Shown here piece by piece: positions 56,341-60,663 of a DNA stretch of 64,000 nt; the first letter of the stretch is position 1, and each line of letters starts with the position of its first letter. Both the position numbers and the translations under genes were made by a program. Source of the DNA: Alteriqipengyuania lutimaris. Its GTDB lineage: Bacteria > Pseudomonadota > Alphaproteobacteria > Sphingomonadales > Sphingomonadaceae. The stretch covers positions 2,206,501 through 2,270,500 of the forward strand of contig NZ_QRBB01000001.1 of NCBI RefSeq assembly GCF_003363135.1, written 5' to 3'. The notes beneath the pieces are model-generated. The model saw nothing but the letters and a program-made list of their open reading frames with translations. It made no database searches and was not told the DNA's origin.

Positions 56341-57120
56341 ATGGATGACGCCAGAAACACGCAGATCGACCGACTTCTTTCCATCATGGCGCGCCTGCGC
56401 GATCCGGAACGCGGCTGCGAGTGGGATCTCGCGCAGGATTTCGCCTCGATCGCACCTTATACGATCGAGGAAGCCTACGAGGTGGCCGACGCCATCGAGC
56501 GCGACGCGATGGAAGAACTGCGTGAGGAACTCGGCGATCTGCTGCTGCAAGTCGTGTTCCATGCGCAAATGGCCGAGGAACGCGGGCTATTCGCCTTCGC
56601 GGACGTCGCACGGAGCATTTCGGACAAGATGGAAGCGCGCCATCCGCACATCTTCGCCGGCTCTGACGGCACGATGGACGAGACGCGGTGGGAAGCGCTC
56701 AAGGCGAGCGAGCGTGAGGCGAAGGGCCAGCAAAGTGCGATGGATGGCGTCGCTCGCGCCCTGCCCGCCCTCCTCCGTGCCGAGAAACTGCAAAAGCGCG
56801 CGGCTCGTGATGGCTTCGACTGGCCCGATCCCTCGGGCGCAGCCGATAAACTCGCCGAAGAAGCGCGCGAGCTCGCCGAGGCGGACGATGCGACGCGTGA
56901 GGAGGAAGCCGGCGACTTGCTGTTCGCCGCCGTCAACCTCGTACGCGCGCATGGCATTCAGCCCGAGGCCGCACTGCGCGCGGCGAACGACAAGTTCGAA
57001 CGGCGCTATCGCGGCATGGAAGGATTGGCCGAAGGACGCTTCGCCACGCTGGACCTCGATGCTCAGGAAGCACTGTGGCAGGCGGTAAAGCGAGCCGAAC
57101 GAAACGGTTCAACCGGCTAG
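56341..57120 (+). CDS. mazG: Nucleoside triphosphate pyrophosphohydrolase MazG
   Basis: A 259-residue enzyme hydrolysing NTPs to NMPs, with two MazG helical domains. The first has CEWDLAQDFASIAPYTIEEAYEVADAI and the metal-binding EEL.EELGD; the second has EEARELAEADDATREEEAGDLLFAAVNL. Alternative starts are ATG 56329 and GTG 56302. It converges on hflX, and the two genes overlap by 12 bases at their 3' ends. Confidence 0.92.
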   Translation: MDDARNTQIDRLLSIMARLRDPERGCEWDLAQDFASIAPYTIEEAYEVADAIERDAMEELREELGDLLLQVVFHAQMAEERGLFAFADVARSISDKMEARHPHIFAGSDGTMDETRWEALKASEREAKGQQSAMDGVARALPALLRAEKLQKRAARDGFDWPDPSGAADKLAEEARELAEADDATREEEAGDLLFAAVNLVRAHGIQPEAALRAANDKFERRYRGMEGLAEGRFATLDLDAQEALWQAVKRAERNGSTG

Positions 57121-58425
57121 GTCGAAACTTTCGAACTGGCCGAGTTCCTTGGGGCCAAGCCGTACGACGAGGCGGTGCTGCGGCGCTCCGTCCTCGCTCT
57201 CCAGTTCTTCCTCTTCGAGAACGTCGCCGTGGGCATGGAGCCACGCGATCTCGCGCCCGGCGCTCGTCGGCAGCACGAATTCGCGCGTCGTCGCAGAGCG
57301 CGTCAGGACCTGGCCGATCCGCTCTTCGAGCGCATCGATGTTGAAGCCCGTCTCGGCCGAAAGCGGCACGACTTCCACATCGTCCGCCGCGCGTACCTGC
57401 AGATCCTCGCGCGTATCGTCGGTCAGCAGGTCCCACTTGTTCCAGACTTCGAGGATGGGGATGGCGCTGACGGGCTCCTCCCCCTCCTCTCCCCCGGATA
57501 TGACGTCGAGCCCTCGCAGCACCTCAAGCACCTGCGTCTTTTGCGCTGCGCTCGCCGGATTGGCGATGTCGCGCACGTGCAGGATCAGGTCCGCATTGGT
57601 GACCTCTTCGAGCGTGGCACGGAATGCCGCCACCAGCTGCGTCGGCAGATCGGAGATGAAGCCCACCGTGTCCGACAGAATCGCCTTTTCGACCCCGGGC
57701 AGCCCGATCGCGCGCATCGTGGGGTCGAGCGTGGCGAAGAGCAGGTCTTCCGCCATCACGTCCGAACCCGTCAGGCGGTTGAAAAGGGTCGACTTGCCCG
57801 CGTTGGTATAGCCGACCAGCGCGATCACCGGCCACGGGGCGCGGGTGCGCCGTTCGCGGTGCAATGCGCGTGTCTTGCGGACCTGCTCGAGCTCCTTTCG
57901 CAGCCGGCTCATCCGCGTGCGGATCATGCGCCGGTCCGCCTCGATCTGGGTCTCGCCGGGCCCGCCGAGAAAGCCGTAGCCGCCACGCTGCCGCTCGAGG
58001 TGGGTCCAGCTGCGCACGAGACGGCTGGCCTGGTAATCGAGATGGGCAAGCTCGACCTGCAGGCGCCCTTCGGCCGTGGCCGCGCGCTCGCCGAAAATTT
58101 CAAGGATCAACCCGGTGCGGTCGATCACCTTGCGCTTGAGGTTTTCCTCCAGCGTACGCTGCTGGATCGCGGAGAGAGCCCCGTCGACGATGATCAGTTC
58201 GGCTTCGGCCAGTTCGGCCTGCGTGCCGATCTGCTCGACCTGACCGGCACCGAAAAGCGTAGCCGGACGCACATCGCGCACCGGCTGGATGTAGCTTTCG
58301 GCTACAACGATGCCGATCGCGTTGGCGAGGCCGATGGCTTCGGCAAGGCGCTCCTCGGCCGGCAGGTCGTGGTTTACCCCGCGAATGTCCGGGCATATGA
58401 CGAGTGCTCGCGCACCGCGCGTCAC
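57109..58425 (-). CDS. hflX: GTPase HflX
   Basis: A 438-residue ribosome-associated GTPase that splits stalled ribosomes. The N-terminal domain ends in the linker GGYGFLGGPGETQIEADRR; the G domain has P-loop GYTNAGKST (205-213), DTVGFISDLP and NKWD. It follows hfq on the same strand, the hfq-hflX order common in proteobacteria. Confidence 0.95.
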   Translation of the reverse strand: MTRGARALVICPDIRGVNHDLPAEERLAEAIGLANAIGIVVAESYIQPVRDVRPATLFGAGQVEQIGTQAELAEAELIIVDGALSAIQQRTLEENLKRKVIDRTGLILEIFGERAATAEGRLQVELAHLDYQASRLVRSWTHLERQRGGYGFLGGPGETQIEADRRMIRTRMSRLRKELEQVRKTRALHRERRTRAPWPVIALVGYTNAGKSTLFNRLTGSDVMAEDLLFATLDPTMRAIGLPGVEKAILSDTVGFISDLPTQLVAAFRATLEEVTNADLILHVRDIANPASAAQKTQVLEVLRGLDVISGGEEGEEPVSAIPILEVWNKWDLLTDDTREDLQVRAADDVEVVPLSAETGFNIDALEERIGQVLTRSATTREFVLPTSAGREIAWLHAHGDVLEEEELESEDGAPQHRLVVRLGPKELGQFESFDLAG

Positions 58426-58482: not shown

Positions 58483-59109
58483 CTAGTCGTCCGCTTCGTC
58501 GTCGTCCCAATCGCTCAGGTCGACATTTTCCGCAGGCTGGATGGTCGATACGGCGTGCTTGTAGGCCAGCTGCACGAACCCGTCACGTTCCAGCAGCGTG
58601 CAGAACAGATCATACGCGGCGATCCGCCCCTGCAGCATGACGCCATTGACGAGGAACATGGTCACCTGGACCTCCGCCTCGCTCACGCGGCCGAGAAACA
58701 CGTCCTGCAACTGGCGCTGCTTCTTGCCGCCATCGCGGCTCGCAAACTGCTCCGCATCCATCGGCTGCGCGGGCATGATGGTGCTGATCGCGTGCTTGTA
58801 GACCAGCTGCGACTGGCCATCGCGCCGCAGGAGGAGCGAGAAATTGTCGAACCAGGTGATGATGCCCTGGAGCTTCACCCCTTTGACGAGAAACACCGTT
58901 ACCGGGGCCTTTTCGCGGCGCAGGATGTTCAGGAAGGCGTCCTGAAGCGTGGTCTGCTTCCCTTGGGCCGACCTGTCCTCGGCCTTGCGGGCAGTCGGAG
59001 CCTTCTTCTCTTTGCGCTCGGTAGGAGCCGCGTCCGCCTCTTCTGGCTGGATATCCTCGTCCACGGGCGCCTTTTTCGCTCGGATCGAGAGCGTCTTTCC
59101 TTCGGCCAT
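58483..59109 (-). CDS. hfq: Tandem (double) Hfq RNA chaperone
   Basis: A 208-residue protein, about twice a normal Hfq, made of a charged disordered N-terminus (1-50) and two Hfq modules: 52-116 and 131-195. Each has Sm1 and the Sm2 motif YKHA(I/V)ST. Module 1 keeps Gln56, the rim patch R64-R65-E66-K67 and Lys79 (K31 of E. coli). In module 2 the rim patch is S143-E144-A145-E146 and K31 is Met158; its proximal-site Lys184-His185 remain. A trimer would build a six-module ring. An acidic tail ([12 protein letters not shown]) ends it. I place the start at ATG 59107-59109, which has AAGG upstream; the frame is open further. Located between ntrX and hflX. Confidence 0.93.
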
Positions 59110-59283
59110 GAGCCTTTTCCTGTTCTTGGCAGCAGGTGCACCGCACCGACCGCATGCATTCGGCAAGAGGCTTTTCGCACCCACTTGGCGCACCCCCTTG
59201 CCACTTAAATCAAAAATGCTTGCCCGGGCCGAGCGTTCCGCACGCCAAGTACAAGGCGCTACAACCCATCACTTACCATCGAC

Positions 59284-60663
59284 TTACGTTTCTTCCTTGC
59301 GCTCCGTCATACCGAGAATTTTGAGCTTTCGGTGCAGTGCCGAACGCTCCATCCCGATGAAACTCGCGGTTTTCGAGATATTCCCGGAAAACCGGCGGAT
59401 TTGAATGGCGAGATATTCACGCTCGAATTCCTCGCGGGCCTCACGCAAAGGTACGCCCATCAGGCTCGCCATGCCGATCCCGCCCTTGACCCCGCCCTCG
59501 GTAATCTCGGCGGGCAGCATGTCGTTCTCGATCACGTGCATCTTGTCGCGCGGGCTCAGAATGACCGTACGCTCCACCACATTGCGCAGTTCGCGCACGT
59601 TGCCGGGCCAGTCGTAGGCCTGCAAGGTCGCGAGAGCCTCTTCGCTGACCGTCGGCGCCGGCAAGCCCTGTTCGGAGGCGTAACGCGCGAAGAAGTGGGT
59701 CGCAAGCGCGGGGATGTCGTCGCGGCGCTCGGCCAGCGAGGGGATCGATACCGGCACCACGTTGAGGCGGTAGAACAGGTCTTCGCGGAAACGCTTTTCC
59801 TCGATTTCCTTCTGCAGGTCGCGCGAGGTGGAGCTGACCACCCGCATATCGACCCCGATCTGGCGGTTGCCGCCGACCCGCACGAAGCTCTGCTCGGTCA
59901 GAACGCGCAGGATGCGGGCCTGTGTCGACAATGGCATGTCCGCGACCTCGTCGAGATAGAGCGTTCCACCATCGGCCGTTTCGAGCAGGCCCGGCCGGAT
60001 GAGCTTGCCTTCGGACTCTTCGCCGAACAGCTCCTGCTCGAACCGTTCGGCGGTGATCCTTGCCGAGTTGACGATGACGAAGGCACCGGTCGAGCGCGGG
60101 CTCCAGCTATGGAGCAGACGCGCCGCAACCTCCTTGCCACTGCCCGCCGGACCGCTGATCAGCACCCGGCTGCCGGTACTCGCCACGCGCTTCAGCGTCG
60201 CGCGCACCTGGTTTACGGCGGCCGAATTGCCGTTGAATTCTTCGCCCGCGCCGCCGCTATCCTGCTTCAGCCGGGTATTTTCGCGCCGCAGCCGCTCGGT
60301 CTCGGTCGCACGTTCGACCAGCAGCAGCAGCCGCTCCGTCTCGAAGGGCTTCTCGATGAAATCCATTGCCCCGCGGCTGACGGCGGATACGGCGGTGTCG
60401 ATGTTGCCGTGGCCGGAAAAGATGATCACCGGCAGCTCGGGCTCGCGTGCCTTGATCGCATCGAGCACTTCCAGCCCGTCCATCGGGCTGCCGTGAAGCC
60501 ACACGTCGAGCAGAACGAGGCTTGGCCGCCGCTCATCGACGAGGCGCAGCGCGGTGCCGCTGTCGCCCGCCACGCGGCATTCGTAGCCTTCGTCGCTCAG
60601 CACGCCGGAGACCAGATCGCGAATGTCGCGTTCGTCGTCGACGACCAGGATATCGAGCGCCAT
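59284..60663 (-). CDS. ntrX: NtrX-family response regulator without GAFTGA loop
   Basis: A 459-residue NtrC-like regulator. The receiver domain has the phosphoacceptor Asp53, the AAA+ domain has Walker A GPAGSGKE (171-178) and Walker B LYLDEV (235-240), and a Fis-type helix-turn-helix ends it (ISKTASFIGMERSALHRKLK). In the segment ELFGEESEGKLIRPGLLE (211-228) the GAFTGA sigma-54 contact loop is absent. It probably regulates by binding DNA rather than activating sigma-54. Encoded 28 bases after ntrY. Confidence 0.93.
   Translation of the reverse strand: MALDILVVDDERDIRDLVSGVLSDEGYECRVAGDSGTALRLVDERRPSLVLLDVWLHGSPMDGLEVLDAIKAREPELPVIIFSGHGNIDTAVSAVSRGAMDFIEKPFETERLLLLVERATETERLRRENTRLKQDSGGAGEEFNGNSAAVNQVRATLKRVASTGSRVLISGPAGSGKEVAARLLHSWSPRSTGAFVIVNSARITAERFEQELFGEESEGKLIRPGLLETADGGTLYLDEVADMPLSTQARILRVLTEQSFVRVGGNRQIGVDMRVVSSTSRDLQKEIEEKRFREDLFYRLNVVPVSIPSLAERRDDIPALATHFFARYASEQGLPAPTVSEEALATLQAYDWPGNVRELRNVVERTVILSPRDKMHVIENDMLPAEITEGGVKGGIGMASLMGVPLREAREEFEREYLAIQIRRFSGNISKTASFIGMERSALHRKLKILGMTERKEET

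Follow-up and report, generated by a model that had tools for sequence, protein, structure and literature searches.

The hfq gene in the window (the whole stretch of 64,000 nucleotides of Alteriqipengyuania lutimaris DNA analysed here) encodes two Hfq modules in one chain. In every tandem Hfq that we examined, the two modules differ at the distal-face positions 28 and 31, and in most of them also at position 41. Taken together, the evidence below makes it likely that this gene is the sole hfq of its genome, that the tandem form arose once, and that three chains make up what is most likely one alternating ring with unequal sites.

Results

A single gene encodes two Hfq modules

A first-pass annotation of this DNA had read two complete Hfq modules in one chain, preceded by a charged N-terminal extension of about 50 residues. 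Both features are confirmed: Pfam Hfq (PF17209) matches the protein along two stretches (180.6 bits, cut-off 27; overall E 3.8e-54), and residues 1–50 form a charged arm (Table 1). Matches along two stretches were also obtained with TIGR02383 (169.3 bits, cut-off 61.7) and NF001602 (197.6 bits, cut-off 95). The equivalog NF010691 (PRK14091.1) covers residues 41–207 with profile positions 9–176 of 176 and scores 289 bits, above its cut-off of 270. We take NF010691 as a model of the tandem form, because it is 176 positions long and because, in a phylum sample of 299 genomes, its cut-off is passed by genomes of the same family alone (15/16, against 0/283 of the others).

The predicted model contains the Sm fold twice, with a helix and five strands per module. 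AlphaFold2 returned a pTM of 0.71 for the full window chain and of 0.86 for the 147-aa core of a tandem Hfq from the other clade. In structure searches, Hfq chains rank first on module 1 and on module 2; the best 50 rows of each search contain only Hfq chains and no two-Sm chain, which proves nothing. No tandem Hfq chain was present among the PDB sequence matches, which comprise 35 distinct chains of 63–114 aa. With module bounds of 68 aa, the linker measures 11 residues in the window protein, and linkers range from 10 to 15 residues among 66 tandem genera. Acidic C-terminal tails are also found on single Hfqs of the family.

Table 1 Features of the tandem hfq gene and its neighbours in the window, in order of position (residue positions 16–19, 28, 31 and 41 in E. 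coli Hfq numbering).
Feature	Coordinates	Strand	Remarks
hflX	57109..58425	-	downstream neighbour; TIGR03156 436 bits (cut-off 216.75)
hfq, tandem two-module	58483..59109	-	208 aa + stop
C-terminal tail	58486..58518	-	short, acidic, 11 residues
module 2, residues 130–197	58519..58722	-	Sm fold
module 2 Leu168	58606..58608	-	position 41 (module 1: Asn)
module 2 NGVM, residues 155–158	58636..58647	-	Asn28 + Met31
module 2 rim SEAE	58672..58683	-	positions 16–19, without basic residue
linker, residues 119–129	58723..58755	-	
module 1, residues 51–118	58756..58959	-	Sm fold
module 1 KGVK, residues 76–79	58873..58884	-	Lys28 + Lys31
module 1 rim patch RREK	58909..58920	-	positions 16–19
N-terminal arm, residues 1–50	58960..59109	-	charged; pLDDT 55–68 by blocks of ten
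arm motif KTLSIR, residues 5–10	59080..59097	-	clade-B motif [TK]L[ST]x[RK], usually TLSAR
AGGAAAAGG	59113..59121	-	likely hfq ribosome-binding site (read directly)
ntrX	59284..60663	-	upstream neighbour; NF051870 736 bits (cut-off 600)

The minus-strand reading frame is open throughout 58483..59193, and we counted the protein from the ATG at 59109. This start has AGGAAAAGG just 5′ of it and is backed by the close relatives L093, L191, L192 and L194, in which MPEGKTLS stands at the same place. The host genome (3.29 Mb, 99.99% complete) yields Hfq matches to these two modules only (106.4 and 78.9 bits, cut-off 27), and a whole-genome search at E 0.001 found no second, single Hfq elsewhere. The tandem gene is the normal and sole hfq of an Erythrobacteraceae-type sphingomonad genome.

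The local gene order is dusB-ntrY-ntrX-hfq-hflX, in which ntrY is named by its position and by histidine-kinase matches, none of them above an equivalog cut-off. HflX is present in 180/180 loci examined. Between 59284 and 63988 of the window, ntrY-ntrX directly follow dusB, with no ntrB-ntrC in between; in other alphaproteobacteria the order is dusB-ntrBC-ntrYX. In a search of the genome for ntrC, all 28 matches fall below the cut-off, but absence of NtrC is not to be concluded from this, because only 1/14 control genomes pass it.

The modules differ by fixed residues on the distal face

We compared 149 tandem loci with 26 single Hfqs, using E. coli Hfq numbering throughout. The tandem loci remain after 5 of 154 were dropped as copies (one of these, L174, in fact represents another species from an included genus); they represent 140 distinct cores, and some are one genome met twice. 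The singles comprise two outgroups and 24 loci of the family, spread over 15 genera. At position 28, Asn is found in 26/26 singles and 149/149 modules 2, and Lys in 149/149 modules 1. Position 31 is Lys in 26/26 singles and 149/149 modules 1, and Met in 149/149 modules 2; position 63 is Met in 26/26 singles and Gln in 149/149 modules 2. Asn41 is found in all 26 singles and all 149 modules 1, with Leu in 146/149 modules 2 (63/66 when one locus per genus is counted).

A further 28 loci, from more diverged genera (12 of them new) and kept off the tree, gave the same picture at most of these positions. Lys28 in module 1 and Asn28, Met31 and Gln63 in module 2 each occur in 28/28, and position 31 of module 1 is Lys in 27/28 and Arg in one. 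Position 41 varies more, with Ala or Thr in 3/28 modules 1, and Leu in 22/28 and Pro, Gln or Gly in 6/28 modules 2. By group code, the tandem sets cover 79 genera (66, g41 and the 12 new ones). The loci L206, L207 and L208 of g77 are strongly diverged tandem Hfqs of one genus that still keep Lys28 in module 1 and Asn28 and Met31 in module 2; position 41 of module 1 is Ala or Thr in this genus, and L208, a frame of 145 aa, has K31R in module 1 and Y55F in module 2.

The proximal pocket, by comparison, is largely retained in both modules. Each module of the window protein has Q8, F42, Y55, K56 and H57; across the 66 genera, Q8, Y55, K56 and H57 stand in both modules of 66/66, and F42 in 66 modules 1 and 65 modules 2. 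The extra loci add one F42Y in a module 1 and one Y55F in a module 2.

For the window protein, the first-pass annotation had assigned RREK and Lys31 to module 1 and SEAE and Met31 to module 2, with Asn and Leu at the two positions 41. All of these residues are as described, but reading Asn41 as a change does not hold, as it is ordinary in 26/26 single Hfqs. Overlooked there was N28K, which is module 1's own change. With K28 and K31 in module 1 and N28 and M31 in module 2, two lysines per module pair are therefore kept, shifted onto module 1, and lysines 28 and 31 may work jointly across neighbouring modules. In the accessible part of PMC8121710, molecular dynamics put the N28 backbone in the pocket that receives the N of each ARN repeat, and in that of PMC6422490 the Lys31 backbone amide contacts the phosphate of A; since these published contacts run through the backbone, K31M and N28K might matter little.

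Mean identity between genera is 71.6% for module 2 and 83.5% for module 1. Pooled pN/pS values over 31 independent pairs are 0.20 (0.16–0.24) for module 1 and 0.26 (0.19–0.32) for module 2; they come from the 133/149 loci with 68-aa modules and from pairs up to a pS of 0.5, some of them distant, so that synonymous change is partly saturated and the ratios are rough. By these measures, both modules are under constraint, with module 2 the more variable.

Tandem Hfq appears to have arisen once

In a GTDB family sample, 194/199 genomes have Hfq, with two matches in 168 and one in 26. The 168 include G007, in which the two matches are single copies lying far apart. The fusion was read in frame in 67 genomes and 28 more, or 95 family genomes. 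In a class sample of 387 genomes, a tandem alignment matched over its full length in 6/6 genomes of the same family, the window's own included. Outside the family, 327/381 genomes match (best 1e-39), and no row spans both modules among the matches listed, which reach to ~5e-36, a depth at which a very diverged tandem could escape.

On a tree of HflX, there is one change between single and tandem: single forms are basal and tandem forms make up one clade (support 89), although the rooting is less certain than this support implies, because two long outgroup branches meet there. Nowhere on this tree has a tandem Hfq been lost or reverted to a single one, and all singles branch below the tandem clade. 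The tree comes from a short tree search over 105 rows and uses 13/80 named loci, with L002 (a copy) and L030 (a 147-aa fragment) excluded. In a tree of the modules (35/66 genera and the 26 singles), the modules 2 included all group together in a single clade (support 100), and a branch with support 91 sets the modules 1 to one side; this tree has 68 columns, resolves little else and splits the outgroup across sides. Judging from these trees and samples, tandem Hfq arose once, inside one GTDB family.

Clade counts use one locus per genus, and the 66 genera divide into 30 of clade A, 4 basal to clade B and 32 of clade B proper; L085, whose long branch lies apart from the two large groups, is counted with clade A. 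The window sits in clade B, and a search with L067 of clade A retrieves proteins labelled Sphingomonas and Rhizorhabdus.

Rim loss is graded, and one clade carries a new arm

The basic rim patch is there in module 1 of the window protein and absent from module 2. Basic residues occupy all three of positions 16, 17 and 19 in 26/26 singles, 66/66 modules 1 and 28/28 extra modules 1. Module 2 differs between the clades. Among the 30 genera of clade A, 10 have all three basic residues there, another 10 have two, 8 have a single one and 2 lack them; of the 4 basal rows of clade B, 3 have one and 1 has none; and of the 32 genera of clade B proper, the window included, 25 have one and 7 lack any. Among the extra modules 2 (n=28), 2 carry two basic residues, 14 carry one and 12 carry none.

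Rim loss is thus lineage-specific, true of the window's clade and no rule for tandem Hfqs. The first-pass annotation had presented loss of the module 2 patch as the salient asymmetry: this stands for the window's clade, where 0/36 genera have more than one basic residue, and falls for clade A, where 20/30 keep two or three. Its further inference that only three of six rim patches are active may apply to the window's clade. When tandem Hfqs are aligned for fixed losses in module 2, as it had proposed, Lys31→Met is fixed and the rim loss is not general; its interpretation is, overall, partly supported. A general loss of the rim among tandem Hfqs is ruled out, as many clade A modules 2 keep a basic patch. 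The changes at 28 and 31, by contrast, go back to the origin of the tandem form or close to it.

An arm in front of module 1 is found in 32/32 clade B genera, with 24–54 residues up to the LQD of module 1 and a median net charge of +3. Within it, the motif [TK]L[ST]x[RK], mostly as TLSAR, occurs in 32/32 clade B genera and in 0/30 of clade A, 0/4 of basal B and 0/26 singles, while shuffled N-terminal regions contain it in 0.1/32 on average and in 2 at most. The motif is present in 78/80 named loci, and L130, one of the two misses, shows TLSARP by eye; it is also present in 18/28 extra loci and missing from 10 (codes g42, g44, g51, g68 and g77). The clade with this arm is also the one in which module 2 no longer has its basic rim, which suggests that the arm may replace the rim or dock a partner.

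Position 54 of module 2 is Ala in 32/32 genera of clade B, 3/4 of basal B and 0/30 of clade A. It is Ala in 18/28 extra loci, the same number as have the arm motif, though not necessarily the same loci. Val54 is given as a subunit-interface residue in the accessible part of PMC11770335, and Ala54 in clade B is a possible interface specialisation.

Relation to known Hfq proteins

Doubled Hfq in sphingomonads, which the first-pass annotation believed to be on record, is indeed known from Yang et al. 2010 (PMC2877685) and from NF010691. In its accessible text, that paper describes two Sm-like domains in the Zymomonas mobilis Hfq (ZMO0347) and in six other Sphingomonadales, treats the Z. mobilis protein as a stress regulator and raises three chains per ring as a question; both the doubling and the three-chain idea have therefore been published before. 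Like ZMO0347 and the other Sphingomonadales proteins, the window protein has two Sm/Hfq modules per chain, but it differs from the Zymomonas account in its N-terminal arm with the clade B motif and in the SEAE rim of module 2.

Residue-level asymmetry between the modules is absent from the accessible account of Yang et al. 2010, and we did not find it described in the accessible portions of the open-licence literature searched. In what is accessible of each source, PMC5379935 does not treat residues 28, 31 and 41, PMC10725011 has Hfq in its references only, PMC7546472 and PMC13414033 contain nothing relevant to tandem Hfq asymmetry, and PMC9797736 and PMC5770649 make no statement on two-domain Hfq. 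What the present analysis adds is the fixed asymmetry at 28 and 31, a tree on which the tandem form has one origin, a rim loss that differs in degree among clades, and an arm specific to one clade.

Among single-module proteins, a close comparison is Caulobacter crescentus Hfq (PDB 6gwk), with chains 74–76% identical in Foldseek rows and 6gwk_R aligned by VIA-align to module 1, residues 52–124, at 68%. This protein and other alphaproteobacterial single Hfqs have one module per chain, against two here, and N28 and K31 are found in 26/26 aligned singles, an alignment that 6gwk stands outside. Burkholderia, with hfq and hfq2, and Bacillus anthracis resemble the present case in having two Hfq units per cell; theirs are separate genes, with no fusion. 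Novosphingobium aromaticivorans is named in the accessible part of PMC3474761 among species with two hfq-like copies, which may well be the fused pair.

Discussion

The usual view of Hfq is one of six equivalent sites. Where a large clade stably keeps a fused Hfq with unequal halves, the modules can be altered one at a time; the number of sites that an sRNA chaperone requires on its proximal face, distal face and rim therefore becomes accessible to experiment, a question to which homomers give no direct answer. It is also relevant to the origin of heteromeric Sm/Lsm rings from homomers. If the alternating arrangement is true, these proteins would show, as an experiment set up by nature, which of six equivalent Hfq sites are required, and a bacterial counterpart of heteromeric Lsm rings. 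The unequal split of RNA-contacting residues between the modules is worth testing.

In the arrangement that we favour, three chains would assemble into a ring of alternating modules 1 and 2, (M1-M2)x3. The product would be a pseudo-hexamer whose symmetry is three-fold where that of ordinary Hfq is six-fold. Such a ring is plausible, and the predicted models are compatible with it; as far as pTM can indicate, the modules may pack like neighbours. On the proximal face, 3′-U tails would still be bound at six sites, with position 41 alternating between Asn and Leu. On the distal face, each module 1 would present two lysines and module 2 none, so that ARN-type sites would alternate between charged and uncharged. 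Rim annealing in the window's clade would run through the three module 1 patches only, and the TLSARP-like arm beside each module 1 would be a likely segment for contacting a partner or RNA. The stronger proposition is that an obligate (M1-M2)x3 ring has replaced the six-fold ring clade-wide, with K28 and K31 set against N28 and M31, position 41 mostly alternating, and one large sub-clade that has lost half its rim patches and gained the TLSARP arm; for this, we regard the case as evenly balanced.

The main rival is subfunctional drift into sites that became spare after fusion, which would leave an ordinary Hfq with fewer sites and is itself compatible with an alternating ring. We lean against it while giving it real weight. 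The lower identity of module 2 fits drift, as do the variable position 41 in some genera and the graded rim loss across clades, the latter being expected of relaxed constraint. According to the accessible part of PMC6563040, the Hfq of Sphingopyxis granuli TFA, in which the tandem form is not established, is an ordinary partner of the sRNA SuhB, and repression of thnR by SuhB needs Hfq; a sphingomonad Hfq therefore does work with an sRNA, again in keeping with drift. Against this, K28 in module 1 and N28, M31 and Q63 in module 2 look selected, because they are invariant in 66/66 genera and 28/28 extra loci and because the pN/pS of module 2 is far below 1, and the rim-less clade shares a new arm motif. 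The same pattern as from an adaptive split would result, however, if the 28/31 states had been fixed once by chance at the origin and had then come under constraint.

Alternatively, six chains could build a stack of two homomeric rings, with all modules 1 in one ring, all modules 2 in the other and the linkers as tethers between them. Linkers of 10–15 residues do not by themselves forbid this, and module 2 retains an Sm fold of its own; however, module placement within the predicted chain appears defined (pTM 0.86 for the 147-aa core), and paired N28K in module 1 and K31M in module 2 would be easier as neighbours in one ring, so we consider stacking unlikely. A frameshift, sequencing error or mis-assembly joining two hfq genes is ruled out for practical purposes, given the in-frame fusion in 67 + 28 genomes and the curated NCBI model NF010691, and we assign it a vanishingly small probability. 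The alternating three-chain ring remains our preferred reading.

Five database proteins (P0040, P0036, P0039, P0035 and P0042; 241–248 aa) have three Hfq modules per chain, some with exact repeats or with modules that are hybrids of modules 1 and 2. They are likely to be assembly chimeras or products of recent unequal crossing-over, because their contigs measure 0.8–1.6 kb; if real, two such chains would make one ring.
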